From Saccoglossus kowalevskii (taxonomy: Eukaryota > Hemichordata > Enteropneusta > Harrimaniidae), in the NCBI RefSeq assembly GCF_000003605.2, contig NW_003146345.1, positions 1 to 35,637 of the forward strand: a stretch of 35,637 nt of DNA, given 5' to 3'. Positions 1 to 35,637 of this stretch are shown piece after piece; within the stretch, counting starts at the first letter, position 1; every line of letters starts with the position of its first letter. The position numbers and the translations under genes were made by a program. Under the pieces are notes generated by a model that saw only the letters and a list, made by a program, of their open reading frames with translations, ran no database searches and was not told the origin of the DNA.

Positions 1-321
1 ACAAAGTAGAGAAATTTAATAAAAGCCAATTGAAAGCAGCCTGTAGATGTTGCCATGAGGTGAGGGCAAAATGTTTGAAAACACCGTGCAATGTTGGAAA
101 AAACGAAGGAAATGTTGGCGGAGTTGTTTATATATTTAACGTAAGTCATTTTCATGAAAACCCCGCAGTTAAATTTAGAAAACATTAAGTAAATGTTCCG
201 AGAATGTCTTATATATAAGCAGATTATCACAACAGCCAACGGAAAAATCGACAAGAAACTGCTTAAAAAGTTGTAAAAAGCAATTGCAAAGTTGCTAGTT
301 TCATTCGGGATTGTTACCTGT
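1..321 (+). repeat. Monomer M0, partial (left edge)
   Basis: Type II 3' part of a monomer, cut by the window start. CTTATATATAAG palindrome at 218-229. Confidence 0.95.
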
Positions 322-1262
322 GATATCATATTAACAAGTCCAATAGTTAAAAGTTCGAAAATGTGAATAAATGTTTCGTTAATTGGTGTTAAATTATCGT
401 AGTGTTACTCAAAGTATGTAGAGGTCATAGGTCAATTATAGGAGGTACCTGTGAAAGCGATATCGTTTTTGAAACATTAAAAAATCTGAAATAGCCGGAA
501 ATTCATCTGAATTTCAAATAATCGATGCAGCTGTGAGGTTAGGTGATCGACCAATGTTTAAAGTAAAGCACAAACGGGCGTGGTTAGATCTTGCATAGGA
601 GACTGCCTGAGTAAATGAGCTGTTGAGTTTATTTTTTTGTTTCATCACGCATATCGAAAATATATAACGCAACGTTCCTGCATTCTTTCTTACTGTGATG
701 TCGATCATTTATAGTGGAAAATCGTGGAATTGTAGTAACTGTTTTAATTAATGGAAAGTTTTCAATTTCCTTCTAATTTTCAAGACAAGTTGCTGAGCTG
801 TCGGCACGTAGTGGGATTTACGCTGTTAACACTCCCGGCAAAGTTGTTCAAAGTGATTGCAAAATTGTGCAAAGTTATTGCAAATTGGTAGATGGATTTG
901 TATGTGTGACATATGTTGTTGGCATATTGAAACACGCAGTTGTATAGTTGAGAAATTTAATAAAACCCGATTGAAAGCTGCCTATAGATGTTCCCATGAG
1001 CTGAGGGTAAAATGTTAGAACACACCGTGCAAAGTTGGAAAAAGCGAAGGAAATGTTGGCGGAGTTGCTTATATATTTAACGTAAGTCATTTTCGTGACA
1101 GCCCCGCAGTTAAATTTCGAAAACATTAAGTAAATGTTCCTAGAATGTCTTATATATAAGCAGATTATCACAACAGCCAACGGAAAAATCGACAAGAAAC
1201 TGCTTACAAAGTTGTAAAAAGCGATTGCAAAGTTGGTAGTTTCATTCGGGATTGTTACCTGT
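322..1262 (+). repeat. Monomer M1, type I
   Basis: 941 bp. DR1 at 422-434; 5S-like segment 561-638, with the private change TTAGATCTTG. The upstream dyad reads AATTCATCTG, neither of the two usual forms. Confidence 0.95.
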
Positions 1263-2209
1263 GATATCATATTAACAAGTCCAATAGTTAAAAGTTCGAA
1301 AATGTGAATAAATGTTTCGTTAATTGGTGTTAAATTATCGAAGTGTTAATCAAAGTATGTAGAGGTCATAGGTCAATTATAGGAGGTACCTGTGAAAGCG
1401 ATATCGTTTTTGAAACATTAAAATATATGAAATAGCCGGCAATTCGGCTGAATTTCAAATAATCGATGCAGCTGTGTGATTAGGTGATCGACCAATATTT
1501 TTAAAGTAAAGCACAAATAGGCGTGGTTAGTTCTTGCAAGGGAGACTGATTGAGTAAATGAGCTGTTGAGTTTATTTTTTTTTGTTACATCACGCATATC
1601 AAAAACATATAAGGAAACGTTCCTGCATTCTTTCTTACTGTGATGTCGATCATTTGTAGTGGAAAATCGTGGAATTTTTGTAACTGTTTTAATTAATGGA
1701 AAGTTTTCAAATTCCTTCTAATTTTCAAGAACAAGTTGCTGAGCTGTCGGCACGTAGTGGTATTTACGCTGTTACCACTCCGTGCAAAGTTGTTCAAAGT
1801 GATTGCAAAGTTGTGCAAAGTTATTGAAAAGTTGGTAGATGTATTTGTATATATGGCCTAAGTTGTTGGCATGTAGAAACGCGCAGTTGTAAAGTCGAGA
1901 AATTTAATAAAAACCGATTGAAAGCAGTCTATAGTTGTTCCCATGAGCTGAAGGTAAAATGTTAGAAAACACCGTGCAATGTTGGAATAAGCGAAGGAAA
2001 TGTTGGCGGAGTTGCTTATATATTTAACGTAAGTCATTTTCATGACAACCCCGCAGTTAAATTTAGAAAACATTAAGTAAATGTTCCGAGAATGTCTTAT
2101 ATATAAGCAGATTATCACAACAGCCAACGGAAAAATCGACAAGAAACTGCTTACAAAGTTGTAAAAAGCGATTGCAAAGTTGGTAGTTTCATTCGGGATT
2201 GTTACCTGT
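1263..2209 (+). repeat. Monomer M2, type I/III hybrid
   Basis: 947 bp. 5S-like segment 1504-1583 with the CAAGGGAGACTGATTG variant. Variable part begins as type I (AAAACCGATTG) and continues as type III (CATGAGCTGAAGG, GGAATAAGCG). Confidence 0.95.
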
Positions 2210-3152
2210 GATATCATATTAACAAGTCCAACAGTTAACAGTTTGAAAATGTGAATAAATGTTTCGCTAATTGGTGTTAAATTATCGTAGTGTTACTCAA
2301 AGTATGTAGAGGTCATAGGTCAATTATAGGAGGCGCCTGTGAAAGCGATATCGTTTTTGAAACATTAAAAAATCTGAAATAGCCGGCAATTCAGCTGAAT
2401 TTCAAATAATCGATGCAGCTGTGTGGTTAGGTGATCGACAAATGTTTAAAGTAAAGCACAAACGGGCGTGGTTAGTTCTTGCATAGGAGACTGCCTGAGT
2501 AAATGACCTGTTGAGTTTAATTTTTTTGTTTCATCACGCATATCGAAAATATATAAGGCAACGTTCCTGCATTTTTCTTACTGTGATGTAGATCATTTAT
2601 AGTGGAAAATCGTAGAAATTTTGTAACTGTTTTAATTAATACAAAGTTTTCTAAATCCTTCTAGATTTCAAGAACAAGTTGCTGAGCTGTCGGCACGTAG
2701 TGAGATTTACGCTGTTAACACTCCCGGCAAAGTTATTCAAAGTGATTGCAAAATTGTGCAAAGTTATTGCAAAGTTGGTAGATGGATTTGTATGTATGAA
2801 CTAAGTGTTTGGCATATAGAAACACGCAGTTGTAAAGTCGAGAAATTTAATAAAAACCGATTGAAAGCAGTCTATAGATGTTCCCATGAGCTGAGGGCAA
2901 AATGTTTGAAAACACCGTGCAATGTTGGAAAAAACGAAGGAAATGTTAGCGGAGTTGTTTATATATTTAACGTAAGTCATTTTCATGACAATCCCGCAGT
3001 TAAATTTAGAAAACATTAAGTAAATGTTCCGAGAATGTCTTATATATAAGCAGATTATCACAACAGCCAACGGAAAAATCGACAAGAAACTGCTTACAAA
3101 GTTGTAAAAAGCGATTGCAAAGTTGGTAGTTTCATTCGGGATTGTTACCTGT
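2210..3152 (+). repeat. Monomer M3, type I/II hybrid
   Basis: 943 bp. 5S-like segment 2449-2527. CAGCTG palindrome form at 2388-2401. Variable part starts as type I and ends as type II (TTTGAAAACACC, AAAAAACGAAGG). Confidence 0.95.
2388..2401. repeat. Perfect 14 bp palindrome, CAGCTG form of the dyad (M3)
   Basis: AATTCAGCTGAATT equals its own reverse complement. Other copies of this form include those near 4271, 5208, 6151, 9295, 11175, 13065, 15585, 26915, 27864, 32575, 33235 and 35445. It lies just upstream of the 5S-like segment. Confidence 0.8.
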
Positions 3153-4095
3153 GATATCATATTAACAAGTCCAATAGTTAAAAGTTCGAAAATGTGAATA
3201 AATGTTTCGTTAATTAGTGTTAAATTATCGTAGTGTTACTCAAAGTATGTAGAGGTCATAGGTCAGTTATAGGAGGTACATGTGAAAGCGATATCAGTTT
3301 TGAAACATAAAAAAATCTGAAATAGCCGGCAATTCGGCTGAATTTCCAATAATCGATGCAGCTGTGTGGTTAGGTGATTGACCAATGTTTAAAGTAAAGT
3401 ACAAACGGGCGTGGCTAGTTCTTGCATGGGAGACTGCTTGAGTAAATGAGCTGTTGAGTTTATTTTTTTAGTTCCATCACGCATATCGAAAATATATAAG
3501 GCAACGTTCCTGCATTCTTTTTACTGTGATGTAGATCATTTATAGTGGAAAATCGTAGAAATTTTGTAACTGTTTTAATTAATACAAAGTTTTCAAATTC
3601 CTTCTAGATTTCAAGAACAAGTTGCTGATCTGTCGGCACGTAGTGGGATTTACGCTGTTACTACTCCGTGCAAAGTTGTTCAAAGTGATTGCAAAGTTGT
3701 GCAAAGTTATTGCAAAGTTGGTAGATGTATTTGTATATATGACTTAAGTTGTTGGCATATAGAAACGCGCAGTTGTAAAGTCTAGAAATTCAATAAAAGC
3801 CAATTGAAAGCAGTCTATAGATGTTGCCATGAGGTGAGGGCAAAATGTTTGAAAACACCGTGCAAAGTTGGAAAAAACAAAGAAAATGTTGGCGGAGTTG
3901 CTTATACATTTAATGTAAGTCATTTTCATGACAACCTCGCAGTTAAATTTAGAAAACATTAAGTAAATGTTCCGATAATGTCTTATATATAAGCAGATTA
4001 TCACAACAGCCAACGGAAAAATCGACAAGAAACTGCTTACAAAGTTGTAAAAAGCGATTGCAAAGTTGGTAGTTTCATTCGGGATTGTTACCTGT
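3153..4095 (+). repeat. Monomer M4, type II
   Basis: 943 bp. 5S-like segment 3392-3469 with the CTTGAG variant of box C. Dyad in AGCCG/CGGCT form at 3324-3339. Confidence 0.95.
3324..3339. repeat. AGCCG/CGGCT hairpin dyad, alternative form (M4)
   Basis: AGCCG, a six-base loop GCAATT, then CGGCT. This is the same site as the CAGCTG palindrome of other monomers with A changed to G: the change weakens the 14 bp palindrome but completes a different inverted repeat. Flanking AAAT and GAATTT could extend the stem with a bulge. It is the commoner form in the window. Confidence 0.7.
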
Positions 4096-5030
4096 GATAT
4101 CATATTAACAAGTCCAATAGTTAAAAGTTCGAAAATGTGAATAAATGTTTCGTTAATTGGTGTTAAATTATCGTAGTGTTACTCAAAGTATGTAGAGGTC
4201 ATAGGTCAATTATAGGAGGTACCTGTGAAAGCAATATCGTTTTTGAAACATTAAACAATCTGAAATAGCCGGCAATTCAGCTGAATTTCAAATAATCGAT
4301 GCAGCTGTGTGGTTAGGTGATCGACCAATGTTTAAAGTAAAGCACAAACGGGCGTGGTTAGTTCTTGCATAGGAGACTGGCTGAGTAAATGACCTGTGGA
4401 GTTTATTTTTTTTTGTTTCATCACGCATATCGAAAACATATAAGGCAACGTTCCTGCATTCTTTCTTACTGTGATGTCGATCATTTATAGTGGAAAATCG
4501 TGGAATTTTTAATTTATGGAAAGTTTTCAAATTCCTTCTAATATTCAAGAACAAGTTGCTGAGCTGTCGGCACGTAGTGGGATTTACGCTGTCACTACTC
4601 CGTGCAAAATTGTTCAAAGTGATTGCAAAGTTGTGCAAAGTTATTGAAAGGTTGGTAGATGTATTTGTATATATGACCTAAGTTGTTGGCATATAGAAAC
4701 GCGCAGTTGTAAAGTCGAAAAAATCAATAAAAGCCAATTGAAAGCAGTCTATAGTTGTTCCCATGAGCTGAAGATAAAATGTTAGAAAACACCGTGCAAT
4801 GTTGGAATAAGCGAAGGAAATGTTGGCGGAGTTGCTTATATATTTAACCTAAAGTCATTGTCATGACAACCCCGCAGTTAAATTTCGAAAACATTAAGTA
4901 AGTGTTCCAAGAATGCCTCATATATAAGCAGATTATCACCACAGCCTACCAAAAAATCGACAAGAAACTGCTTACAAAGTTGTAAAAAGCGATTGCAAAG
5001 TTGGTAGTTTCATTCGGGATTGTTACCTGT
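4096..5030 (+). repeat. Monomer M5, type III
   Basis: 935 bp; shorter because of an 11 bp deletion that gives GAATTTTTAATTTATGG (near 4505), shared with M7 and M8. 5S-like segment 4335-4414. Shares the inserted A in CCTAAAGTCATT with M8. Confidence 0.95.
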
Positions 5031-5974
5031 GATATCATATTAACAATTCCAATAGTTAAAAGTTCGAAAATGTGAATAAATGTTTCGTTAATTGGTGTTA
5101 AATTATCGTAGTGTTAATCAAAGTATGTAGAGGTCATAGGTCAATTATAGGATGTACCTGTGAAAGCGATATCGTTTTTGAAACATTAAAAATCTGAAAT
5201 AGCCGGCAATTCAGCTGAGTTTCAAATAATCTATGCAGCTGTGTGGTTAGGTGATCGACCAATGTTTAAAGTAAAGTACAAACGGGTGTGGTTAGTTATT
5301 GCATGGGAGACTGCCTGAGTAAATGACCTGTTGAGTTTATTTTTTTTTGTTTCATCACGCATATCGAAAATATATAAGGCAACGTTCCTGCATTCTTTCT
5401 TACTGTGATGTCGATCATTTATAGTGGAAAATCGTGGAATTTTTGTAACTGTTTTAATTAATGGAAAGTTTTCAAATTCCTTCTAATTTTCAAGAACAAG
5501 TTGCTGAGCTGTCGGCACGTAGTGGGATTTACGCTGTTACCACTCCGTGCAAAGTTGTTCAAAGTGATTGCAAAGTTGTGCAAAGTTATTGAAAGGTTGG
5601 TAGATGTATTTGTATATATGACCTAAGTTGTTGGCATATAGAAACGCGCAGTTGTAAAGTCGAGAAATTCAATAAAAGCCAATTGAAAGCAGTCTATAGA
5701 TGTTGCCATGAGGTGAGGGCAAAATGTTTGAAAACACCGTGCAATATTGGAAAAAACGAAGGAACTGTTGGCGGAGTTGCTAATATATTTAACGTAAGTA
5801 ATTTGAATGACAACCCCGCAGTTAAATTTCGAAAACATTTAGTAAATGTTCCGAGAATGTCTTATATATAAGCAGATTATCACAACAGCCAACGGAAAAA
5901 TCGACAAGAAACTGCTTACAAAGTTGTAAAAAGCGATTGCAAAGTTGGTAGTTTCATTCGGGATTGTTACCTGT
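5031..5974 (+). repeat. Monomer M6, type II
   Basis: 944 bp. 5S-like segment 5269-5348. Carries rare changes TAGGATGTACC and GGAACTGTTGG that recur in M9, marking a shared duplication. Confidence 0.95.
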
Positions 5975-6907
5975 GATATCATATTAACAAGTCCAATAGT
6001 TAAAAGTTCGAAAATGTGAATAAATGTTTCGTTAATTGGTGTTAAATTATCGTAGTGTTACTCAAAGTATGTAGAGGTCATAGGTCAATTATAGGAGGTA
6101 CCTGTGAAAGCAATATCGTTTTTGAAACATTAAACAATCTGAAATAGCCGGCAATTCAGCTGAATTTCAAATAATCGATGCAGCTGTGTGGTTAGGTGAT
6201 TGATCAATGTTTAAAGTAAAGCACAAACGGGCGTGGTTAGTTTTTGCATAGGAGACTGCCTGAGTAAATGACCTGTTGAGTTTATTTTTTTTGTTTCATC
6301 ACGCATATCGAAAATATATAAGGCAACGTTCCTGCATTCTTTCTTACTGTGATGTCGATCATTTATAGTGGAAAATCGTGGAATTTTTAATTTATGGAAA
6401 GTTTTCAAATTCCTTCTAATATTCAAGAACAAGTTGCTGAGCTGTCGGCACGTAGTGGGATTTACGCTGTCACTACTCCGTGCAAAATTGTTCAAAGTGA
6501 TTGCAAAGTTGTGCAAAGTTATTGAAAAGTTAGTAGATGTATTTGTATGTATAACCTAAGTTGTTGGCATAAAGAAACGCGCAGTTGTAAAGTAGAGAAA
6601 TTTAATAAAAGCCAATTGAAAGCAGTCTATAGTTGTTGCCATGAGCTGAGGGCAAAATGTTTGAAAACACCGTGCAATGTTGGAAAAAACGAAGGAAATT
6701 TTGGCGGAGTTGTTTATATATTTAACGTAAGTCATTTTCATGACAACCCCGCAGTTAAATTTCGAAAACATTAAGTAAAAGTTCCATGAATGCCTCATAT
6801 ATAAGCAGATTATCACCACAGCCTACCAATAAATCGACAAGAAACTGCTTACAAAGTTGTAAAAAGCGATTGCAAAGTTGGTAGTTTCATTCGGGATTGT
6901 TACCTGT
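5975..6907 (+). repeat. Monomer M7, type II-like
   Basis: 933 bp with the same 11 bp deletion as M5. 5S-like segment 6214-6292. GCTGTCACTACTCC and CTAATATTCAAG are shared with M5. Variable part is II with CATGAGCTGAGGG. Confidence 0.95.
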
Positions 6908-7842
6908 GATATCATATTAACAATTCCAATAGTTAAAAGTTCGAAAATGTGAATAAATGTTTCGTTAATTGGTGTTAAATTATCGTAATGTTACCTAAAG
7001 TATGTAGAGGTCATAGGTCAATTATAGGAGGTACCTGTGAAAGCAATATCGTTTTTGAAACATTAAACAATCTGAAATAGCCGGCAATTCGGCTGAATTT
7101 CAAATAATCGATGCAGCTGTGTGGTTAGGTGATCGACCAATGTTTAAAGTAAAGCACAAACGGGCGTGGTTAGTTCTTGCATAGGAGACTGCCTGAGTAA
7201 ATGACCTGTTGAGTTTTTTTTTTTTTGTTTCATCACGCATATCGAAAATATATAAGGTAACGTTCCTGCATTCTTTCTTACTGTGATGTCGATCATTTAT
7301 AGTGGAAAATCGTGGAATTTTTAATTTATGGAAAGTTTTCAAATTCCTTCTAATTTTCAAGAACAAGTTGCTGAGCTGTCGGCACGTAGTGGGATTTACG
7401 CTGTTACCACTCCGTGCAAAGTTGTTCAAAGTGATTGCAAAGTTGTGCAAAGTTATTGAAAGGTTGGTAGATGTATTTGTATATATGACCTAAGTTGTTG
7501 GCATATAGAAACGCGCAGTTGTAAAGTCGAAAAAATCAATAAAAGCCAATTGAAAGCAGTCTATAGATGTTCCCATGAGCTGAAGGTAAAATGTTTGAAA
7601 ACACCGTGCAATATTGGAAAAAACGAAGGAAATGTTGGCGGAGTTGCTTATATATTTAACCTAAAGTCATTGTCATGACAACCCCGCAGTTAAATTTCGA
7701 AAACATTAAGTAAGTGTTCCAAGAATGCCTCATATATAAGCAGATTATCACCACAGCCTACCAAAAAATCGACAAGAAACTGCTTACAAAGTTGTAAAAA
7801 GCGATTGCAAAGTTGGTAGTTTCATTCGGGATTGTTACCTGT
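6908..7842 (+). repeat. Monomer M8, type III/II hybrid
   Basis: 935 bp with the 11 bp deletion. 5S-like segment 7147-7226, where the TTTA before the T-run has become all T (7214-7226). Confidence 0.95.
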
Positions 7843-7892: not shown

Positions 7893-7942
7893 TGTTTCGT
7901 TAATTGGTGTTAAATTATCGTAGTGTTAATCAAAGTATGTAG

Positions 7943-7955
7943 AGGTCATAGGTCA
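7943..7955 (+). promoter_or_regulatory. Perfect DR1 nuclear-receptor half-site repeat (representative, M9)
   Basis: AGGTCATAGGTCA is two perfect AGGTCA half-sites in direct orientation separated by one base. This DR1 arrangement is the preferred site of RXR/USP, HNF4, COUP-TF/SVP and related nuclear receptors. It lies about 100 bp after the phase motif in nearly every monomer; I count 37 intact among 41 visible sites. M17 has AGGTCAAAGGTCA (15174-15186), the textbook form. Lost or damaged in M16 (one half-site deleted), M35, M36 and M37. Binding is not shown by sequence alone. Confidence 0.5.
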
Positions 7956-8081
7956 ATTATAGGATGTACCTGTGAAAGCGATATCGTTTTTGAAACATTA
8001 AAAAATCTGAAATAGCCGGCAATTTAGCTGAATTTCAAATAATCGATGCAGCTGTGTGGTTAGGTGATTGACCAATGTTTA

Positions 8082-8161
8082 AAGTAAAGCACTAACGGGC
8101 GTGGTTAGTTCTTGCATGGGAGACTGCCTGAGTAAATGATCTGTTGAGTTTATTTTTTTTT
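8082..8161 (+). pseudogene. 5S rRNA-like relic (representative copy, M9)
   Basis: From AAGTAAAGC to the end of a T-run, this stretch follows the 3' half of eukaryotic 5S rRNA. The core (GGGCGTGGTTAG, CTTGCATGGGAGAC, GCCTGAG) matches about 31 of 36 positions of the animal 5S sequence as I remember it, and covers the box C part of the internal promoter bound by TFIIIA. Upstream, AAGTAAAGCAC resembles the box A region AAGTTAAGCA. Downstream, AGCTGTTGAG or CTGTTGAG can be laid on the 5S 3' end before the T-run, which sits where a Pol III terminator would. The 5' half of 5S is not clearly recognisable; GGCTGAAT about 80 bp upstream is only a hint. Such a diverged molecule cannot be a normal 5S rRNA, so this is a relic carried in every monomer; coordinates of the other copies are under each monomer. 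Confidence 0.78.
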
Positions 8162-8183
8162 GTTTCATCACGCATATCGAAAA

Positions 8184-8190
8184 TATATAA
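8184..8190 (+). promoter_or_regulatory. TATA-like box after the T-run (representative, M9)
   Basis: TATATAAGG within GAAAATATATAAGG lies about 25 bp after the T-run in most monomers (variant AACATATAAGG in many type II monomers). It fits a Pol II TATA box, but no convincing initiator or conserved reading frame follows, so function is doubtful in AT-rich DNA. Confidence 0.25.
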
Positions 8191-8362
8191 GGCAACGTTC
8201 CTGCATTCTTTCTTACTGTGATGTCGATCATTTATAGTGGAAAATCGTGGAATTTTTGTAACTGTTTTAATTAATGGAAAGTTTTCAAATTCCTTCTAAT
8301 TTTCAAGAACAAGTTGCTGAGCTGTCGGCACGTAGTGGGATTTACGCTGTTACCACTCCGTG

Positions 8363-8391
8363 CAAAGTTGTTCAAAGTGATTGCAAAGTTG
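8363..8391 (+). repeat. Internal duplication, left copy (M9)
   Basis: A 29 bp block built on CAAAGTTG matches 26 of 29 positions with 8732-8760 in the same monomer, 369 bp further on. More CAAAGTT motifs follow at once (GTGCAAAGTTATTG), so this part looks like a degenerate short-period repeat within the monomer. Confidence 0.7.
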
Positions 8392-8673
8392 TGCAAAGTT
8401 ATTGAAAGGTTGGTAGATGTATTTGTATATATGACCTAAGTTGTTGGCATATAGAAACGCGCAGTTGTAAAGTCGAGAAATTCAATAAAAGCCAATTGAA
8501 AGCAGTCTATAGATGTTGCCATGAGGTGAGGGCAAAATGTTTGAAAACACCGTGCAATATTGGAAAAAACGAAGGAACTGTTGGCGGAGTTGCTAATATA
8601 TTTAACGTAAGTCATTTTCATGACAACCCCGCAGTTAAATTTCGAAAACATTAAATAAATGTTCCGAGAATGT

Positions 8674-8685
8674 CTTATATATAAG
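8674..8685. repeat. CTTATATATAAG palindrome (representative, M9)
   Basis: Perfect 12 bp self-complementary site that reads TATATAAG on both strands. Many monomers keep it exactly (for example 218-229); others have CTCATATATAAG, which breaks the symmetry. Confidence 0.6.
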
Positions 8686-8731
8686 CAGATTATCACAACA
8701 GCCAACGGAAAAATCGACAAGAAACTGCTTA

Positions 8732-8760
8732 CAAAGTTGTAAAAAGCGATTGCAAAGTTG
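8732..8760 (+). repeat. Internal duplication, right copy (M9)
   Basis: Partner of 8363-8391 (26 of 29 identical, three substitutions). It runs straight into the most conserved part of the monomer, GGTAGTTTCATTCGGG, ahead of the phase motif. Confidence 0.7.
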
Positions 8761-8787
8761 GTAGTTTCATTCGGGATTGTTACCTGT

Positions 8788-10052
8788 GATATCATATTAA
8801 CAAGTCCAATAGTTAAAAGTTCGAAAATGTGAATAAATGTTTCGTTAATTGGTGTTAAATTATCGTAGTGTTACTCAAAGTATGTAGAGGTCATAGGTCA
8901 ATTATAGGAGGTACCTGTGAAAGCGATATTGTTTTTGAAATATTAAAAAATCTGAAATAGCCGGTAATTCGGCTGAATTTCAAATAATCGATGCAGCTGT
9001 TTGATTATGTGATCGACCAATGTTTTTAAAGTAAAGCACAAACGGGCGTGGTTAGTTCTTGCATGGGAGACTTCCTGAGTAAATGATAATATATAAGGCA
9101 ACGTTCCTGCATTCTTTCTTACTGTGATGTCGATTATTTAAAGTGGAAAATCTTGGAATTTTTGTAACTGTAAATTGGTGTTAAATTATCGTAGTGTTAC
9201 TCAAAGTATGTTGAGGTCATAGGTCAATTATAGGAGGTACCTGTGAAAGCGATATCGTTTTTGAAACATTAAACAATCTGAAATAGCCGGCAATTCAGCT
9301 GAATTTCAAATAATCGATGCAGCTGTGTGGTTAGGTGATCGACGAATGTTTAAAGTAAAGCACATACGGGCGTGGTTAGTTCTTGAATAGGAGACTGCCT
9401 GAGTAAATGAGCTGTTGAGTTTATTTTTTTTTGTTTCATCGCGCATATCGAAAATATATAAGGCAACGCTCCTGCATTCTTTCTTACTGTGATGTCGATC
9501 ATTTATAGTGGCAAATCGTGGAATTGTTGTAACTGTTTTAATTAATGGACAGTTTTCAAATTCCTTCTAATTTCAAGAACAAGTTGCTGAGCTGTCGGCA
9601 CGTAGTGGGATTTAAGCTGTTACCACTCCGCGGAAAGTTGTTCAAAGTGATTGCAAAGTTTTGCAAAGTTATTGAAAAGTTGGTAGATGTATTTGTGTAT
9701 ATGACCTAAATTGTTGGCATATAGAAACGCGCAGTTGTAAAGTCGAGAAATTCATAAAGCCATGAAAGCAGTCTATAGATGTGCCATGAGTGAGGGCAAA
9801 ATGTTTGAAAACACCGTGCAAAGTTGGAAAAAAACGATGGAAATGTTGGCGGAGTTGCTTATATATTTAACGTAAGTCATTTTCATGACAACCCCGCAGT
9901 TAAATTTCGAAAACATTAAGTAAATGTTCCGAGAATGTCTTATATATAAGCAGATTATCACCACAGCCTACCAAAAAATCGACAAGAAACTGCTTACAAA
10001 GTTGTAAAAAGCGATTGCAAAGTTGGTAGTTTCATTCGGGATTGTTACCTGT
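8788..10052 (+). repeat. Compound unit M10: short monomer A plus a full type II monomer
   Basis: 1265 bp. Two 5S-like segments, 9029-9086 (no T-run) and 9353-9432. At 9742-9800 there is a cluster of single-base losses (ATTCATAAAGCCATGAAAG) unlike the rest of the array. Confidence 0.93.
8851..9176 (+). repeat. Short 326 bp monomer, copy A
   Basis: Between two GGTGTTAAATT motifs there are only 326 bp. Two deletions relative to a full monomer: about 50 bp at AAATGA/TAATATATAAGG, removing the T-run after the 5S-like core (9029-9086), and about 570 bp at GTAACTG/TAAATTGG (9170/9171). The phase motif and variable region are absent. Confidence 0.9.
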
Positions 10053-24848: not shown

Positions 24849-25796
24849 GATATCATATTAACAATTCCAATAGTTAAAAGTTCGAAAATGTGAATAAATG
24901 TTTCGTTAATTGGTGTTAAATTATCGTAGTGTTAATCAAAGTATGTAGAGGTCATAGGTCAATTATAGGAGGTACCTGTGAAAGCGATATCGTTTTTGAA
25001 ACATTAACAAATCTGAAATAGCCGGCAATTCGGATGAATTTCAAATAATCGATGCAGCAGTGTGGTTAGGTGATCGACCAATGTTTTTAAAGTAAAGTAC
25101 AAACGGGCGTGGTTAGTTCTTGCATGGGAGACTGCCTGAGTAAATGACCTGTTGAGTTTATTTTTTTGTTTGTTTCATCACGCTTATCGAAAATATATAA
25201 GGCAACGTTCCTGCATTCTTTCTTACTGTGATGTCGATCATTTATAGTGGAAAATCGTGGAATTTTTGTAACTGTTTTAATTAATGGAAAGTTTTCAAAT
25301 TCCTTCTAATTTTCAAGAACAAGTTGCTGAGCTGTCGGCACGTAGTGGGATTTACGCTGTTACCACTCCGTGCAAAGTTGTTCAAAGTGATTGCAAAGTT
25401 GTGCAAAGTTATTGAAAAGTTGGTAGATGTATTTGCATATATGACCTAAGTTGTTGGCATATAGAAACGCGCAGTTGTAAAGTCGAGAAATTCAATAAAA
25501 GCCAATTGAAAGCAGTTTATAGATGTTGGCATGAGGTGAGGGCAAAATGTTTGAAACACCGTGCAATATTGGAAAAAACGAAGGAAATGTTGGCGGAGTT
25601 GCTTATATATTTAACGTAAGTCATTGTCATGACAGCCGCGCAGTTAAATTTCGAAAACATTAAGTAAGTGTTCCAAGAATGCCTCATATATAAGCAGATT
25701 ATCACCACAGCCTACCAAAAAATCGACAAGAAACTGCTTACAAGGTTGTAAAAAGCGATTGCAAAGTTGGTAGTTTCATTCGGGATTGTTACCTGT
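24849..25796 (+). repeat. Monomer M27, type IV
   Basis: 948 bp. 5S-like segment 25090-25167; the T-run is followed by GTTTG. Confidence 0.95.
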
Positions 25797-26736
25797 GATA
25801 TCATATTAACAATTCCAATAGTTAAAAGTTCGAAAATGTGAATAAATGTTTCGTTAATTGGTGTTAAATTATCGTAGTGTTACTCAAAGTATGTAGAGGT
25901 CATAGGTCAATTATTGGAGGTACCCGTGAAAGCGATATCGTTTTTGAAACATAAAAAAATCTGAAATAGCCGGCAATTCGGCTGAATTTCCAATAATCGA
26001 TGCAGCTGTGTGGTTAGGTGATCGAGCAATGTTTAAAGTAAAGTACAAACGGGCGTGGTTAGTTCTTGCATGGGTGACTGCTTGAGTAAATGAGCTGTTG
26101 AGTTTATTTTTTTAGTTCCATCACGCATATCGAAAATATATAAGGCAACTTTCCTGCATTCTTTTTACTGTGATGTCGATCATTTATAGTGGAAAATCGT
26201 AGAATTTTTGTAACTGTTTTAAATATTACAAAGTTTTCAAATTCCTTCTAGATTTCAAGAACAAGTTGCTGAGCTGTCGGCACGTAGTGGGATTTACGCT
26301 GTTAACACTCCGTGCAAAGTTATTCAAAGTGATTGCAAAATTGTGCAAAGTTATTGCAAAGTTGGTAGATGGATTTGTATGTATGACCTAAGTTGTTGGC
26401 ATATTGAAACACGCAGTTGTATAGTCGAGAAATTTAATAAAAACCGATTGAAAGCTGCCTATAGATGTTCCCATGAGCTGAGGGTAAAATGTTAGAACAC
26501 ACCGTGCAAAGTTCGAAAAGCGAAGAAAATGTTGGCGGAGTTGCTTATATATTTAACCTAAGTCATTGTCATGACAGACCCACAGTTAAATTTCGAAAAC
26601 ATTAAGTAAATGTTCCGAGAATGTCTCATATATAAGCAGATTATCACAACAGCAACCGTAAAATCGACAACCAACTGCAACAAAGTTGTAAAATGCTATT
26701 GCAAAGTTGGTAGTTTCATTCGAGATTGTTACCTGT
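25797..26736 (+). repeat. Monomer M28, type I
   Basis: 940 bp. 5S-like segment 26036-26113 with ATGGGTGACTGC, nearer to many animal 5S genes (GGGTGACCGC) than the usual ATGGGAGACTGC. Confidence 0.95.
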
Positions 26737-27684
26737 GATATTATATTAACAAGTCCATTAGTTAAAAGTTCGAAAATGTGAATAAATGTTTCGTTAATTG
26801 GTGTTAAATTATCGTAGTGTTAATCAAAGTATGTAGAGGTCATAGGTCAATTATAGGAGGTGCCTGTGAAAGCGATATCGTTTTTGAAACATTAAAAAAT
26901 CTGAAATAGCCGGCAATTCAGCTGAATTTCAAATAATCGATGCAGCTGTGTGGTTAGGTGATCGACAAATGTTTAAAGTAAAGCACAAACGGGCGTGGTT
27001 AGTTCTTGCATGGGAGACTGCTTGAGTAAATGAGCTGTTGAGTTTATTTTTTTTGTTCCATCACGCATATCAAAAACATATAAGGAAACGTTCCTGCATT
27101 CTTTCTTACTGTGATGTCGATCATTTGTAGTGGAAAATCGTGGAATTTTTGTAACTGTTTTAATTAATGGAAAGTTTTCAAATTCCTTCTAATTTCAAGA
27201 ACAAGTTGCTGATCTGTCGGCACGTAGTGGGATTTACGCTGTTACCACTCCGTGCAAAGTTGTTCAAAGTGATTGCAAAGTTGTGCAAAGTTATTGAAAG
27301 GTTGGTAGATGTATTTGTATATATGGCCTAAGTTGTTGGCATGTAGAAACGCGCAGTTGTAAAGTCGAGAAAACTCAATAAAAGCCAATTGAAAGCAGTC
27401 TATAGATGTTGCCATGAGGTGAGGGCAAAATGTTTGAAATCACCGTGCAAAGTTGGACAAAACAAAGGAAATGTTGGCGGAGTTGCTTATATATTTAACG
27501 TAAGTCATTATCATGGCAACCCCGCAGTTAAATTTCGAAAACATTAAGTAAATGTTCCGATAATGTCTGTCTTATATATAAGCAGATTATCACAACAGCC
27601 AACGGAGAAATCGACAAGAAACTGCTTACAAAGTTGTAAAAAGCGATTGCAAAGTTGGTAGTTTCATTCGGGATTGTTACCTGT
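26737..27684 (+). repeat. Monomer M29, type II
   Basis: 948 bp. 5S-like segment 26976-27054. A 4 bp tandem duplication gives TGTCTGTCTTATATATAAG near 27566. Confidence 0.95.
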
Positions 27685-28627
27685 GATATCATATTAACAA
27701 GTCCAATAGTTAAAAGTTCGAAAATGGGAATAAATGTTTCGTTAATTGGTGTTAAATTATCGTAGTGTTACTCAAAGTATGTAGAGGTCATAGGTCAATT
27801 ATAGGAGGTACCTGTGAAAGCGATATCGTTTTTGAAACATTAAAAAATCTGAAATAGCAGGCAATTCAGCTGAATTTCAAATAATCGATGCAGCTGTGAA
27901 GTTAGGTCATCGACCAATGTTTAAAGTAAAGCACAAACGGGCGTGGTTAGTTCTTGCATAGGAGACTGCCTGAGTATATGAGCTGTTGAGTTTATTTTTT
28001 TGTTTCATCACGCATATCGAAAATATATAAGGCAACGTTCCTGCATTCTTTCTTACTGTGATGTCGATCATTTGTAGTGGGAAATCGTGGAATTATTGTA
28101 ACTGTTTTAATTAATGGACAGTTTTCAAATTCCTTCTAATTTCAAGAACAAGTTGCTGATCTGTCGGCACGTAGTGGGATTTACGCTGTTACCACTCCGT
28201 GCAAAGTTGTTCAAAGTGATTGCAAAGTTGTGCAAAGTTATTGAAAAGTTGGTAGATGTATTTGTATATATGATTTAAGTTGTTGGCATATAGAAACGCG
28301 CAGTTGTAAAGTCGAGAAATTCAATAAAAGCCAATTGAAAGCAGTCTATAGATGTTGCCATGAGGTGAGGGCAAAATGTTTGAAAACACCGTGCAAAGTT
28401 GGAAAAAAAACGATGGAAATGTTGGCGGAGTTGCTTATATATTTAACGTAAGTCATTTTCATGACAACCCCGCAGTTAAATTTCGAAAACATTAAGAAAA
28501 TGTTCCGAGAATGTCTTATATATAAGCAGATTATCACCACAGCCTACAAAAAATCGACAAGAAACTGCTTACAAAGTTGTAAAAATCGATTGCAAAGTTG
28601 GTAGTTTCATTCGGGATTGTTACCTGT
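27685..28627 (+). repeat. Monomer M30, type II
   Basis: 943 bp. 5S-like segment 27924-28001. Nearly the same as M31 in its second half (ACGATGGAAATG, GTAAAAATCGATTG). Confidence 0.95.
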
Positions 28628-29570
28628 GATATCATATTAACAAGTCCAATAGTTAAAAGTTCGAAAATGTGAATAAGTGTTTCATTAATTGGTGTTAAAT
28701 TATCGTAGTGTTACTCAAAGTATGTAGAGGTCATAGGTCAGTTATAGGAGGTACATGTGAAAGCGATATCGTTTTTGAAACAAAAGAAAATCTGAAATAG
28801 CCGGCAATTCGGCTGAATTTCTAATAATCGATGCAGCTGTGTGGTTAGGTTGTCGACCAATGTTTAAAGTAAAGTACAAACGGGCGTGGTTAGTTCTTGC
28901 ATGGGAGACTGCTTGAGTAAATGAGCTGTTAAGTTTATTTTTTTAGTTCCATCACGAATATCGAAAATATATAAGGCAACGTTCCTGCATTCTTTTTACT
29001 GTGATGTAGATAATTTATAGTGGAAAATAGTAGACATTTTGTAACTGTTTTAATTAATACAAAGTTTTCAAATTCCTTCTAGATTTCAAGAACAAGATGC
29101 TAAGCTGTCGGCACGTAGTGGGATGTACGCTGTTACCCCTCCGTGCAAAGTTGTTCAAAGTGATTGCAAAGTTGTGCAAAGTTATTGAAAAGTTGGTAGA
29201 TGTATTTGTATATATGACTTAAGTTGTTGGCATATAGAAACGCGCAGTTGTAAAGTCGAGAAATTCAATAAAAGCCAATTGAAAGCAGTCTATAGATGTT
29301 GCCATGAGGTGAGGGCAAAATGTTTGAAAACACCGTGCAAAGTTGGAAAAAAACGATGGAAATGTTGGCGGAGTTGCTTATATATTTAACGTAAGTCATT
29401 TTCATGACAACCCCGCAGTTAAATTTCGAAAACATTAAGAAAATGTTCCGAGAATGTCTTATATATAAGCAGATTATCACCACAGCCTACAAAAAATCGA
29501 CAAGAAACTGCTTACAAAGTTGTAAAAATCGATTGCAAAGTTGGTAGTTTCATTCGGGATTGTTACCTGT
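28628..29570 (+). repeat. Monomer M31, type II
   Basis: 943 bp. 5S-like segment 28867-28944. Shares private changes with M30. Confidence 0.95.
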
Positions 29571-30512
29571 GATATCATATTAACAAGTCCAATAGTTAAA
29601 AGTTCGAAAATGTGAATAAATGTTTCATTAATTGTGTTAAATTATCGTAGTGTTACTCAAAGTATGTAGAGGTCATAGGTCAGTAATAGGAAGTACATGT
29701 GAAAGCGACATCGTTTTTGAAACATTAAAAAATCTGAAATAGCCGGCAATTCGGCTGAATTTCAAATAATCGAAATAGCTGTGTGGTTAGGTGATCGAGC
29801 AATGTTTAAAGTAAAGTACAAACGGGCGTGGTTAGTTCTTGCATGGGAGACTGCTTGAGTAAATGAGCTGTTGAGTTTATTTTTTGTTTGTTTCATCACG
29901 CATATCGAAAATATATAAGGCAACGTTCCTGCATTCTTTCTTACTGTGATGTCGATCATTTATAGTGGAAAATCGTGGAATTGTTGTAACTGTTTTAATT
30001 AACGGACAGTTTTCAAATTCCTTCTAATTTCAAGAACAAGTTGCTGATCTGTCGGCACGTAGTGGGATTTACGCTGTTAACACTCCCTGCAAAGTTATTC
30101 AAAGTGATTGGAAAATTGTGCAAAGTTATTGCAAAGTTGTTAGATGGATTTGTATGTATGACCTAAGTTGTTGGCATATAGAAACACGCAGTTGTAAAGT
30201 CGAGAAATTTAATAAAAACCGATGGAAAGCAGTCTATAGATGTTCTCATGAGCTGAGGGTAAAATCATTGAACACACCGTGCAAAGTTGGAAAAAGCGAA
30301 GGAAATGCTGGCGGAGTTGCTTATATATTTAACCTAAGTCATTGTCATGACAGCACCGCAGTTAAATTTCGAAAACATTATGTAAATGTTCCGAGAATGT
30401 CTCTTATATAGGCAGATTATCGCAACAGCAACCGTAAAATCGACAACCAACTGCAACAAAGTTGTAAAAAGCTATTGCAAAGTTGGTAGTTTCATTCGAG
30501 ATTGTTACCTGT
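29571..30512 (+). repeat. Monomer M32, type I
   Basis: 942 bp. 5S-like segment 29809-29885. Shares GCAACCGTAAAATCG and CAACCAACTGCAAC with M28. Confidence 0.95.
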
Positions 30513-31456
30513 GATATTATATTAACAAGTCTATTAGTTAAAAGTTCGAAAATGTGAATAAATGTTTCGTTAATTGGTGTTAATTTAGCGTAGTGTTACT
30601 CAAAGTATGTAGAGGTCATAGGTCAATTATTGGAGGTACCCGTGAAAGCGATTTCGTTTTTGAAACATTAAAAAATCTGAAATAGCCGGCAATTTAGCTG
30701 AATTTCAAATAATCGATGCAGCTGTGTGATTAGGTGATCGACCAATTTTTTTAAAGTTAAGTACAAACGGGCGTGGTTAGTTCTTGCAAGGGAGACTGAT
30801 TGAGTAAATGAGCTGTTGAGTTTATTTTTTTTGTTTCATCACGCATATCGAAAATATATAAGGCAACGTTCCTGCATTCTTTCTTACTGTGATGTCGATC
30901 ATTTATAGTGGAAAATCGTGGAATTGTTGTAACTGTTTTAATTAACGGACAGTTTTCAAATTCCTTCTAATTTCAAGAACAAGTTGCTGATCTGTCGGCA
31001 CGTAGTGGGATTTACGCTGTTAACACTCCCTGCAAAGATATTCAAAGTGACTGCAAAGTTGTGCAAAGTTATTCAAAGTTGGTAGATGGATTTGTATGTA
31101 TGACCTATGTTGTTGGCATATAGAAACGCGCAGTTGTAAAGTCGAGAAATTCAATAAAAGCCAATTGAAAGCAGTCTATAGTTGTTCCCATGACCTGAAT
31201 GTAAAATGTTAGAAAACACCGTGCAATGTTAGAATAAGCGAAGGAAATGTTTGCGGAGTTGCTTATATATTTAATCTAAGTAATTGTCATGACAACCCCG
31301 CAGTTAAATTTCGAAAACATTAAGTAAATGTTCCAAGAATGCTTCCTATATAAGCAGATTATCACCACAGCCTACCAAAAAATCGACAAGAAACTGCTTA
31401 CAAAGTTGTAAAAAGCGATTGCAAAGTTGGTAGTTTCATCCGGGATTGTTACCTGT
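30513..31456 (+). repeat. Monomer M33, type III-like
   Basis: 944 bp; phase motif GATATTATATT. 5S-like segment 30754-30832, with AAGTTAAG as in canonical 5S. Confidence 0.95.
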
Positions 31457-32395
31457 GATATCATATTAACAAGTCCAATAATTACAAGTTCGAAAATGTG
31501 AATAAATGTTTCGTTAATTGGTGTTAAATTATCGTAGTGTTACTCAAAGTATGTAGAGGTCATAGGTCAGTTATAGGAGGTACATGTGAAAGCGATATCG
31601 TTTTTGAAACATAAACAAATCTGAAATAGCCGGCAATTTGACTGAATTTCCAATAATCGATGCAGCTGTGTGGTTAGGAGATCAACCAATGTTTAAAGTA
31701 AAGTACAAACGGGCGTGGTTAGTTCTTGCATGGGAGACTGCTTGAGTAAACAAGCTGTTGAGTTTATTTGTTTAGTTCCATCACGCATATCGAAAATATA
31801 TAAGGCAACGTTCCTGCATTCTTTTTACTGTGATGTCGATCATTTATAGTGGAAAATCGTAGAATTTTTGTAACTGTTTTAATTATTACAAAGTTTTCAA
31901 ATTCCTTTTAGATTTCAAGAACAAGTTGCTGAGCTGTCGGCACGTAGTGAGATTTACGCTGTTAACACTCCCGGCAAAGTTATTCAAAGTGATTGCAAAA
32001 TTGTGCAAAGTTATTGCAAAGTTGGTAGATGGATTTGTATGTATGACCTAAGTTGTTGGCATATAGAAACACGCAGTTGTAAAGTCGAGAATTTTAATAA
32101 AAACCGATTGAAAGCAGTCTATAGATGTTCCCATGAGCTGAGGGTAAAATCATAGAACACACCGTGCAAAGTTGGAAAAAGCGAAGAAATGTTGGCGGAG
32201 TTGCTTATATATTTAACGTATGTCATTTTCATGACAACCCCGCAGTTAAATTTCGAAAACATTAAGTAAATGTTCCGAGAATGTCTTATATATAATCAGA
32301 TATCACAACAGCCAACGGAAAAATCGACAGAAACTGCTTACAAAGTTGTAAAAGCGATTGCAAAGTTGGTAGTATCATTCGGAATTGTTACCTGT
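31457..32395 (+). repeat. Monomer M34, type I
   Basis: 939 bp. 5S-like segment 31696-31773 with a T-run broken by G (TTTATTTGTTTAG). Single-base losses cluster at 32297-32410. Confidence 0.95.
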
Positions 32396-33052
32396 GATAT
32401 CATATTAACAGTCCATAGTTAAAAGTTTGAAAATGTGAATAAATGTTTCGTTAATTGGTGTTAAATTATCGCAGTGTTACTCAAAGTATGCAGTGGTCAT
32501 AGGTCAATAATAGGAGGTACCTGTGAAAGCGATATCGTTTTTGAAACATTAAAAAATCTGAAATAGCCGGCAATTCAGCTGAATTTCAAATAATCGATGT
32601 AGCTGTGTGGCTAGGTGATCGACCAATTTTTTAAAATAAAGCACAAACGGGCGTGGCTAGTTCTTGCATGGGAGACTGCTTGAGTAAATGAGCTGTTGAG
32701 TTTATTTTTTAGTTCCATCACGCATATCGAAAATATATAAGGTAACGTTCCTGCATTCTTTTTACTGTGATGTCGATCATTTATAGTGGAAAATCGTAGA
32801 ATTTTTGTAACTGTTTTAATTATTACAAAGTTTTCAAATTCCTTCTAGATTTCAAGAACAAGTTGATGAGCTGTCGGCACATAGTGGGATTCAAGCTGTT
32901 AACACTCCCGGCAAAGTTATTCAAATTGATTGCAATGCTGTGCAAAGTTATTGAAAAGTTGGTAGATGTATTTGTATATATGACCTAAGTTGTTGGCAGA
33001 TAGAAACACGCAGTTGTAAAGTCGAGAAATTCAATTAAAGCTTGTTACCTGT
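32396..33052 (+). repeat. Monomer M35, 286 bp deletion
   Basis: 657 bp. The array jumps at about 33040/33041 from TCAATTAAAG to CTTGTTACCTG, removing the whole variable part and the right internal duplicate. 5S-like segment 32634-32710. Confidence 0.93.
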
Positions 33053-33997
33053 GATATCATATTAACAAGTCCAATAGTTAAAAGTTCGAAAATGTGAATA
33101 AATGTTTCGTTAATTGGTGTTAAATTATCGTAGTGTTACTCAAAGTATGTAGAGGTCATTGGTCAATTATAGGAGGTACCTGTGAAAGCGATATCGTTTT
33201 TGAAACATAAAAAAATCTGAAATAGCCGGCAATTCAGCTGAATTTCAAATAATCGATGCAGCTGTGTGATTGGGTGATCGACCAATTTTTTAAAGTTAAG
33301 CACAAACGGGCGTGGTTAGTTCTTGCAAGGGAGACTGATTGAGTAAATAAGCTGTTGAGTTTATTTTTTTTGTTTCATCACGCATATCGAAAATATATAA
33401 GGCAACGTTCCTGCATTCTTTCTTACTGTGATGTCGATCATTTATAGTGGAAAATCGTGTAATTTTTGTAACTGTTTTAATTAATGGAAAGTTTTCAAAT
33501 TCCTTCTAATTTTCAAGAACAGGTTGCTGAGCTGTCGGCACGTAGTGGGATTTACGTTGTTACCACTCCGTGCAAAGTTGTTCAAAGTGATTGCAAAGTT
33601 GTGCAAAGTTATTGAAAAGTTGGTAGATGTATTTGTATATATGACTTAAGTTGTTGGCATATAGAAACGCGCAGTTGTAAAGTCGAGAAATTCAATAAAA
33701 GCCAATTGAAAGCAGTCTATAGATGTTGCCATGTGGTGAGGGCAAAATGTTTGAAAACACCGTGCAAAGTTTGAAAAAGCGAAGGAAATGTTGGCGGAGT
33801 TGCTTATATATTTAACGTATGTCATTTTCATGACAACCCCGCAGTTAAATTTCGAAAATATTAAGTAAATGTTCCGAGAATGTCTTATATATAATCAGAT
33901 TATCACAACAACCAACGGAGAAATCGACAAGAAACTGCTTACAAAGTTGTAAAAAGCGATTGCAAAGTTGGTAGTTTCATTCGGGATTGTTACCTGT
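33053..33997 (+). repeat. Monomer M36, type II
   Basis: 945 bp. 5S-like segment 33293-33371 (annotated separately). DR1 damaged in its second half (TGGTCA). Confidence 0.95.
33293..33371 (+). pseudogene. 5S rRNA-like relic, closest to canonical in the A-box part (M36)
   Basis: This copy reads AAGTTAAGCACAAACGGGCG, in which the first ten bases equal the 5S box A region as remembered, where most copies read AAGTAAAGCA. M33 (from 30754) also has AAGTTAAG. The box C part here has the CTTGCAAGGGAGACTGATTG variant, which is further from 5S. A T-run (33364-33371) follows. Confidence 0.7.
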
Positions 33998-34938
33998 GAT
34001 ATCATATTAACAAGTCCATAGTTAAAGTTCGAAAATGTGAATAAATGTTTCGTTAATTGTGTTAAATTATCGTAGTGTTACTCAAAGTATGTAGAGATCA
34101 TAGGTCAGTTATAGGAGGTACATGTGAAAGCGATATCGTTTTTGAAACATAAAAAAAATCTGAAATAGCCGGCAATTCGGCTGAATTTCCAATAATCGAT
34201 GCAGCTGTGTGGTTAGGTGATAGACCAATGTTTAAAGTAAAGTACAAACGGGCGTGGTTAGTTCTTGCATGGGTGACTGCTTGAGTAAATGAGCTGTTGA
34301 GTTTATTTTTTTAGTTCCATCACGCATATCGAAAATATATAAGGCAACTTTCCTGCATTCTTTTTACTGTGATGTCGATCATTTATAGTGGAAAATCGTA
34401 GCATTTTTGTAACTGTTTTAAATATTACAAAGTTTTCAAATTCCTTCTAGATTTCAAGAACAAGTTGCTGAGCTGTCGGCACGTAGTGGGATTTACGCTG
34501 TTAACACTCCCGGCAAAGTTATTCAAAGTGATTGCAATGTTGTGCAAAGTTATTGAAAAGTTGGTAGATGTATTTGTATATATGACCTAAGTTGTTGGCA
34601 TATAGAAACGCGCAGTTGTAAAGTCGAGAAATTCAATAAAACCCAATTGAAAGCAGTCTATAATTGTTCCCATGAGCTGAAGGTAAAATGTTAGAAAACA
34701 CCGTGCAATGTTGGAATAAGCGATGGAAATGTTGGCGGAGTTGCTTATATATTTAACCTAAGTCATTGTCATGACAACCACGCAGTTAAATTTCGAAAAC
34801 ATTAAGTAAATGTTCCAAGAATGCCTCATATATAAGCAGATTATCACCACAGCCAACGGAAAAATCGACAAGAAACTGCTTACAAAGTTGTAAAAAGCGA
34901 TTGCAAAGTTGGTAGTTTCATTCGGGATTGTTACCTGT
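33998..34938 (+). repeat. Monomer M37, type III
   Basis: 941 bp. 5S-like segment 34235-34312 with ATGGGTGACTGC as in M28. DR1 first half damaged (AGATCA). Confidence 0.95.
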
Positions 34939-35637
34939 GATATCATATTAAAAAGTCCAATAGTTAAAAGTTCGAAAATATGAATAAATGTTTCGTTAAT
35001 TGGTGTTAAATTATCGTAGTGTTACTCAAAGTATGTAGAGGTCATAGGTCAATTATAGGAGGTACCTGTGAAAGCGATATCGTTTTTGAAACATTAAAAA
35101 ATCTGAAATAGCCGGCAATTCGGCTGAATTTCAAATAATCGATGCAGCTGTGTGGTTAGGTGATCGACCAATGTTTAAAGTAAAGAACAAACGGGCGTGG
35201 TTAGTTCTTGCATGGGAGACTTCCTGAGTAAATGATAATATATAAGGCAACGTTTCTGCATTCTTTCTTACTGTGATGTCGATCATTTAAAGTGGAAAAT
35301 CTTGGAATTTTTGTAACTGTAAATTGGTGTTAAATTATCGTAGTGTTACTCAAACTATGTTGAGGTCATAGGTCAATTATAGGAGGTACCTGTGAAAGCG
35401 ATATCGTTTTTGAAACATTAAACAATCTGAAATAGCCGGCAATTCAGCTGAATTTCAAATCATCGATGCAGCTGTGTGGTTAGGAGATCGACGAATGTTT
35501 AAAGTAAAGCACATACGGGCGTGGTTAGTTCTTGAATAGGAGACTGCCTGAGTAAATGAGCTGTTGAGTTTATTTTTTTTGTTTCATCGCGCATATCGAA
35601 AATATATAAGGCAACGCTCCTGCATCTTCTTACTTGA
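34939..35637 (+). repeat. Compound unit M38, partial (right edge): short monomer C plus start of a full monomer
   Basis: 5S-like segments 35178-35235 (no T-run) and 35502-35580. The window ends inside the unit, about 15 bp after GCAACGCTCC. Confidence 0.93.
35002..35325 (+). repeat. Short 324 bp monomer, copy C
   Basis: Same two junctions (second at 35319/35320). 5S-like core 35178-35235 without T-run. The following stretch shares GACGAATG, CACATACGGG, CTTGAATAGG, CATCGCGCAT and ACGCTCC with the stretch after copy A, 26 kb away. Confidence 0.9.

Follow-up and report, generated by a model that had tools for sequence, protein, structure and literature searches.

The window, that is, the whole 35,637-nucleotide stretch analysed from Saccoglossus kowalevskii (contig NW_003146345.1), is occupied from edge to edge (1–35637, plus strand) by a tandem satellite, as seen in a blastn comparison of one unit with the window and in the unit table. 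The array comprises 35 full units of 933–948 bp with a consensus of 944 bp, in agreement with the monomer of about 943 bp claimed in an earlier note on this DNA, as well as three short units and several partial or gapped ones. The full units share a mean pairwise identity of 94.2 %, and no higher-order repeat was detected among them, mean identity being flat (0.940–0.948) at lags of 1–19 units. No tRNA genes were found in the window by ARAGORN, and the 22 open reading frames of at least 80 amino acids displayed no coding pattern worth following.

The monomer itself is composite. With the 945-bp unit at 7901–8845 (plus strand) serving as the coordinate frame, approximately half of it consists of three diverged plus-strand copies of a repeat of about 175 bp, located at about 8355–8520 (A, consensus 455–620), 8545–8700 (B, consensus 645–800) and 8716–8845 (C, consensus 815–944). 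Their pairwise scores (A–B, 30.5; A–C, 36.0; B–C, 28.5) exceed the maxima of 200 shuffles each (21.5, 17.5 and 18.0, respectively). A fourth copy was not seen in the other half of the monomer; a comparison of copy B with consensus block 260–454 scored 14.5, equal to the highest of its 200 shuffles.

The 5S-like segment of the repeat unit

A segment resembling 5S rRNA is present at all 40 readable sites, always on the same (plus) strand and at the same place in the unit, and at every site it aligns ungapped to 5S nucleotides 49–97 (49 nt), with 33–39 of the 49 positions identical to human 5S and 34–40 to Bombyx 5S. The comparison 5S sequences (human, Bombyx, Drosophila and others) were entered by hand rather than taken from a database. 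Counted from position 380 onwards there are 41 units, of which one (13887–14198) carries its 5S site inside a 50-N gap (14055–14104), and the partial unit at 1–379 starts downstream of the site; the forty plus-strand segments reported previously are thus exactly forty. In the reference unit (copy 9) the segment occupies 8082–8130, where 39 of 49 positions equal human 5S, and includes box A (5S positions 50–64), the intermediate element (IE, 67–72) and box C (80–97), the box coordinates being those given in the available part of PMC6204057. The remaining plus-strand copies lie, in order from copy 1 to copy 8, at 561–609, 1504–1552, 2449–2497, 3392–3440, 4335–4383, 5269–5317, 6214–6262 and 7147–7195; from copy 10 to copy 20, at 9029–9077 (short unit), 9353–9401, 10294–10342, 11237–11285, 12182–12230, 13126–13174, 14370–14418, 15313–15361 (copy 17, short unit), 15637–15685, 16583–16631 and 17529–17577; from copy 21 to copy 30, at 18474–18522, 19416–19464, 20362–20410, 21308–21356, 22253–22301, 23198–23246, 24142–24190, 25090–25138, 26036–26084 and 26976–27024; and from copy 31 to copy 40, at 27924–27972, 28867–28915, 29809–29857, 30754–30802, 31696–31744, 32634–32682, 33293–33341, 34235–34283, 35178–35226 (copy 39, short unit) and 35502–35550.

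The likeness to 5S was assessed against randomised sequence. The unit stretch at 7900–8300 scored 29 against human 5S, compared with a maximum of 15 in two sets of 2,000 randomised comparisons, and 23 against Drosophila 5S; over four sets of 2,000 with the two 5S sequences (8,000 in total) the maxima were 14–16. A sequence profile built from three metazoan 5S genes found exactly 40 matches in the window, all on the plus strand, with E-values from 1.3e-9 to 6.9e-5 and often spanning model positions of about 30–114. The monomer consensus scored highest with Bombyx 5S (30), followed by human (27), Drosophila (26), C. elegans (18), Arabidopsis (14) and yeast (7), an order that indicates an animal source without narrowing it further; the 5S of that animal is probably arthropod-like.

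The covariance search proposed in the earlier note gave a different outcome, as the Rfam 5S model RF00001 had no match in the whole window at its gathering score and was absent from the four matches returned for one unit at E-values up to 10. A structured model built from the same three sequences recovered 21 of the 40 sites at E-values up to 10, the best being 0.019; hence the covariance match over the whole gene that marks a 5S rRNA gene is missing, while the internal control region is found at 40/40 sites. Since the sequence-only model detects every site and the structured model responds weakly, the promoter sequence appears to have been kept and the RNA fold lost; a 5S-like fold was likewise not found in four stretches (z from -1.75 to +0.46). 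Only the Rfam result leans towards chance convergence on 5S, which is extremely improbable given the separation of the real scores from 8,000 randomised comparisons, the profile E-values and an ungapped match that is co-linear across three promoter boxes. Taken together, the randomised scores, the ungapped sites and the profile matches support, at the level of sequence, the view that every readable unit carries a 5S-derived segment.

The surviving part corresponds to the RNA polymerase III (Pol III) internal control region, with box A, IE and box C recognizable at 40/40 sites. Averaged over the 40 copies, identity to human 5S is 8.4/15 in box A, 4.9/6 in IE and 14.5/18 in box C, and to Bombyx 5S 10.3, 4.9 and 13.6, respectively. 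The box A-like motif AAGTwAAGC described previously holds as far as AAGTwAAG, but C fills its last position in only 24 of 40 copies, T standing there in 13 and A in 3. Similarly, the proposed match to the 3' half of 5S is strong at nucleotides 49–97 but weak at 98–120, where it is not significant either alone or anchored to the segment.

Beyond the segment, weak likeness extends over 5S nucleotides 29–48 and 98–115, and nucleotides 1–28 are undetectable beside it. A possible continuation corresponding to 29–48 lies at 8062–8081 (plus strand), where the consensus equals Bombyx and Drosophila 5S at 10/20 positions, a value reached at 0.64 % of other offsets (human, 8/20, 6.4 %). A possible weak 3' end lies at 8131–8152 (plus strand); it is not significant as a whole and contains a 9-nt piece identical at 6/9 positions, for which 1–1.5 % of offsets are equally good. 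The presence of a full 5S gene in each unit was considered and rejected, as 5S nucleotides 1–48 did not rise above shuffles on either strand, whether next to the segment or in the rest of the monomer (the best placement, with Bombyx 5S on the plus strand, was equalled by 5.6 % of 500 shuffles), nor did the 5S head anchored to the segment match significantly. Where the 5S terminator would be expected there is a T-run (8153–8161, plus strand), the sole run of at least six T in the plus-strand consensus. The T-run reported behind the segment was confirmed in 36 of 40 copies, which have at least four T within 50 nt; the other four, with at most three consecutive T, are the three short units and the full unit 31515.

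Conservation within the array

Among the units of the array, the promoter segment has not been conserved better than the sequence around it. Mean pairwise difference, measured inside this one array only, is 0.082 in the segment and 0.058 in the monomer, with 89 % of 895 equal-sized windows giving lower values, and within the segment CpG, other C/G and A/T sites all vary more than their counterparts elsewhere. Box C varies at position 85 (A in 12 of 40 copies), position 84 (A in 9), position 94 (other than C in 11) and position 95 (T in 19). The segment thus seems to drift without constraint. That selection keeps it as a functional Pol III or TFIIIC element would be consistent with the largely intact box C and IE and with the retention of the T-run, but is unlikely, as its divergence ranks high among the windows compared and common variants strike box C itself. 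Still less probable is the bolder possibility that the array makes use of a bare 5S-type promoter and terminator kept in each monomer; about 40 regularly spaced TFIIIA/TFIIIC sites in 36 kb would then attract Pol III or TFIIIC, give rise to short RNAs from the satellite, or shape the chromatin of a heterochromatic or centromeric block.

Known systems and the origin of the segment

The closest parallel is the PcP190 satellite of hyloid frogs, which, according to the accessible part of PMC11675491, likewise combines a 5S-like region with unrelated sequence in every repeat; the array described here shares with satellites of that kind a tandem organization and a 5S-derived part in every readable unit. 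The same source gives an identity to 5S of about 69 % for the PcP190 region, compared with 75–77 % over 49 nt in this satellite, and a repeat of about 190 bp in which 120 conserved bp span the transcribed 5S, compared with about 944 bp and about 49 well-kept nucleotides here. In PcP190 the 5S-like region is described there as the slow-evolving part, whereas in the single array studied here the segment is not slower than the rest. Tandem satellites descended from 5S rDNA are also indicated, by the titles of the reports, for a centromeric repeat of Hoplias and for the B chromosome of Plantago lagopus. In Tribolium freemani, 5S arrays are joined to satellite DNA, so that 5S and satellite are interwoven as they are here, although most 5S genes there have the full length of 121 bp according to the part of PMC11202950 available, whereas no intact gene is present in this satellite.

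Mobile elements provide a second group of parallels. In the SINE3 elements HaSE3 of Helicoverpa and SINE3-1_TC of Tribolium, the best similarity to 5S also falls in boxes A, IE and C (PMC3272025, in the portion available), the same three boxes that are found in the satellite segment; these elements are dispersed and consist of a body and a LINE tail, whereas the satellite is tandem with its T-run directly behind the 5S part. The Cassandra and Ajax TRIMs also carry one 5S promoter per unit and are defined by LTRs, a primer-binding site and a polypurine tract (available parts of PMC7215508 and PMC10886601). Cassandra forms long tandem arrays, as here (PMC7215508), and Ajax, like the satellite, retains the promoter part of 5S only (PMC10886601).

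The sequence lends no support to the suggestion that an entire 5S rDNA repeat, spacer included, gave rise to the monomer, although this may still be the case: the clearly 5S-like part amounts to only about 50 bp, and the three repeats of about 175 bp make up roughly half of the unit. The presence of the relic in every readable copy suggests that the monomer had probably taken up a fragment of a 5S gene, or of a mobile element derived from 5S, before it multiplied. A genomic 5S gene, whether a pseudogene or a single 5S rDNA unit, that brought along its terminator and was truncated or decayed at its 5' end has close to an even chance of having been the source. Such an origin would account for the T-run at the expected gene end and for the in-register weak flanks at 29–48 (insect 5S) and in the tail, and it agrees with the extent of many profile matches; moreover, the available part of PMC11202950 describes truncated Tribolium 5S copies that are missing 30 bp from one end or the other. 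On the other hand, head and tail are not significant in either anchored or local tests, and flank identity (10/20 and 8/28) is far below that between human and Bombyx 5S (15/20 and 19/28), so that uniform decay of a whole 5S gene does not fit.

A second candidate, with a chance somewhat below even, is a mobile element with a 5S-derived head, either a SINE of the SINE3 type or a TRIM bearing a 5S promoter (Ajax or Cassandra type), whose head was caught in the satellite or founded it. The combination of well-kept promoter boxes alone with a diverged upstream part recalls what is reported for Ajax and lepidopteran SINE3 elements (PMC10886601, available part) and for HaSE3 (PMC3272025, available part), and Cassandra, whose tandem arrays are long and whose units each have one 5S domain, offers a precedent (PMC7215508, available part). 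However, an internal 175-bp repeat takes up half of the monomer, and in such a SINE Pol III would be halted by a T-run immediately after the 5S portion. A primer-binding-site-like pattern with at most one mismatch occurred nowhere in the window, compared with 5.2 occurrences expected by chance, the pattern being a strict one that misses shorter sites. Inverted repeats around the 5S block, sought as the termini of a DNA element, were rejected, the best pair being equalled by 7 % of 5,000 randomised pairs.

We consider it fairly probable that a 5S gene in decay, or a retroposon with a 5S head, was captured before amplification and that the segment is now a passive passenger. According to this scenario, the 5S gene (decayed or 5'-truncated) or retroposon would have entered, in a single capture, a composite monomer that also holds the three older repeats of about 175 bp, and would then have spread with it via unequal crossing-over and gene conversion. 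The segment would be carried along passively today, showing no sign of being maintained by selection, and weak TFIIIA binding or Pol III transcription may still occur. Why the similarity ends so near the promoter boundaries is not accounted for by a passive origin alone.

Relatives and significance

No paper describing such a satellite was noticed in searches of the open-licence literature. Exact-pattern scans gave no relatives in viral contigs, and none were found among phages or plasmids. An 18-mer scan of genome contigs matched three bacterial loci, in none of which the 5S profile finds anything; in one of them the 18-mer match, by eye, lies inside a bacterial coding gene.

5S-derived satellites and 5S-headed mobile elements are each known separately, and a satellite keeping only the 5S promoter boxes is intermediate between the two. 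It could show how a Pol III promoter enters satellite DNA and whether a captured promoter lets Pol III transcribe satellites. On the present evidence it is most likely a passive relic, and hence a modest addition.

The 5S-like segment

A 49-bp stretch (8082–8130 in the unit at 7901) aligns without gaps to nt 49–97 of 5S rRNA, the region of box A, IE and box C, in all 40 units readable at the site; per copy, human 5S is matched at 33–39 of the 49 positions (mean 74.8 %) and Bombyx 5S at 34–40 (mean 76.9 %). With box coordinates for the 5S control region following a passage of PMC6204057, the copies retain on average 8.4/15 human bases in box A, 4.9/6 in IE and 14.5/18 in box C; the corresponding Bombyx means are 10.3, 4.9 and 13.6. 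Alignment scores for the unit at 7901 are 29 with human 5S and 23 with Drosophila 5S, whereas 2,000 randomised comparisons of each of two null types per 5S reference had maxima of 14–16; these nulls include the AT-rich randomised control that the earlier note had called for. With a cut-off of E = 10, a sequence-only profile built from three metazoan 5S genes matched the window exactly 40 times (E-values 1.3e-9 to 6.9e-5), always on the plus strand and at 5S-segment sites; it had zero matches in unrelated bacterial loci totalling 20.4 kb. Both the gapless alignments and the profile bear out the 40 plus-strand 5S-like segments claimed from sequence reading.

Limits of the likeness, RNA structure and selection

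The likeness had been proposed for the 3′ half of 5S rRNA; it is strong in the promoter region (nt 49–97) and only weak in the tail (nt 98–120). Head and tail beside the segment are not significant in anchored or local alignments. In offset tests on the consensus, 5S nt 1–28 are at chance level against human and Bombyx (8/28 each) and reach 11/28 against Drosophila, equalled by 6.5 % of offsets. Nucleotides 29–48 match insect 5S at 10/20 (0.64 % of offsets as good) and human 5S at 8/20 (6.4 %), the match being patchy in single copies (3–11/20) because many have two additional T. A 9-nt tail piece is identical at 6/9 (1–1.5 % of offsets as good). The sole consensus T-run of at least six, eight T at 253–260, lies at the expected place of the 5S terminator, where 36 of the 40 copies have at least four T, in agreement with the T-run previously noted behind the segment. 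The 5S block is also flanked by an imperfect inverted repeat (7979–8006/8152–8179; 28 nt, 75 %), which is not significant on the consensus, as 7 % of 5,000 randomised pairs are as good.

The Rfam 5S covariance model, named earlier as a check on the 5S reading, gave zero matches, both for the whole window at the gathering score and for a single unit with the limit set at E = 10. A structured model of the three 5S sequences used in the profile, its structure computed by RNAalifold rather than being the canonical 5S structure, listed 21 sites with E no higher than 10, the lowest E-value being 0.019. Therefore, what is preserved is the promoter sequence, not the RNA structure. Folding of four stretches around the segment showed nothing special (z −1.75 to +0.46).

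Within this one array, the per-site difference between copies is 0.082 in the 5S segment versus 0.058 in the monomer, and 89 % of 895 segment-sized windows are less variable than the segment. The higher variation inside the segment than outside holds for CpG sites, the remaining C/G sites and A/T sites taken separately, and box C carries frequent variants among the 40 copies. Nothing points to maintenance of the segment by selection, in a single array whose signal is blurred by gene conversion. Promoter activity of the segment is no more than possible.

Array and monomer architecture

Comparison of one unit with the window by blastn reveals a single tandem array over the whole length: 44 pieces, none of them on the minus strand, span bases 3 to 35634 with 50 N as the sole break. 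These N (14055–14104) are an assembly gap within the array, the true length of which may exceed that shown. Cutting from position 380 onward yields 41 units, including 35 of full length (933–948 bp) with a mean identity of 94.2 % (range 90.9–98.5 %) and no higher-order period over unit lags 1–19. The others are three short units of 324–326 bp (8846–9171, 15132–15455 and 34997–35320), a 659-bp unit with a large deletion (start 32452), the unit holding the N gap (start 13887) and one cut off by the window end (start 35321). The short units share one internal deletion downstream of the 5S boxes and have neither the T-run nor the 175-bp repeats; as they are 96.6–98.2 % identical to one another, they probably stem from a single deletion event, later copied.

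One ~175-bp repeat is present in three diverged copies, at consensus positions 455–620, 645–800 and 815–944 (pair scores 28.5–36.0 versus at most 17.5–21.5 in 200 shuffles for each of three pairs), apparently an older satellite inside a newer one. They occupy about 8355–8845 and the equivalent positions of other units. A 21-bp sub-repeat, TGCAAAGTTGTGCAAAGTGAT, with ~2.5 copies at about 8361–8412, where the first ~175-bp copy begins, likewise recurs at the equivalent positions. Score comparison showed no relation between the ~175-bp repeats and the 5S block, and no tie to either was found for the remaining ~400 bp. A minus-strand ORF of 119 aa crosses the 175-bp repeats in seven units (1858–2217, 2801–3160, 3744–4103, 8436–8795, 10646–11005, 12535–12894 and 15990–16349) and looks incidental, because most units have no entry of that length for it among the listed ORFs. 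The consensus has a G+C content of 35.7 % and a CpG observed/expected ratio of 1.19, as in genomes with little germline CpG methylation.

Probable origin and similar known systems

A 5S-type Pol III unit was probably captured once, prior to array growth, and then spread along with the monomer. Its source is a nearly even choice. A genomic 5S gene, slightly favoured, accounts for the T-run and for the weak likeness of the flanks, which is in register, while a 5S-headed retroposon accounts for good preservation being limited to the promoter boxes, which are also the well-kept 5S part in Ajax and SINE3 (passages of PMC10886601) and in HaSE3 (passages of PMC3272025).

The literature search recognised no satellite as the present one. 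Frogs have 5S-derived satellites (described in part of PMC11675491), and such satellites are reported, by titles alone, for one fish and one plantain B chromosome. Sections of PMC7215508 describe Cassandra tandem arrays in which each unit has a single 5S promoter, and sections of PMC11202950 describe 5S genes joined to satellite DNA in Tribolium freemani. The Saccoglossus satellite differs in that it keeps the promoter boxes alone, within a composite monomer of ~944 bp.
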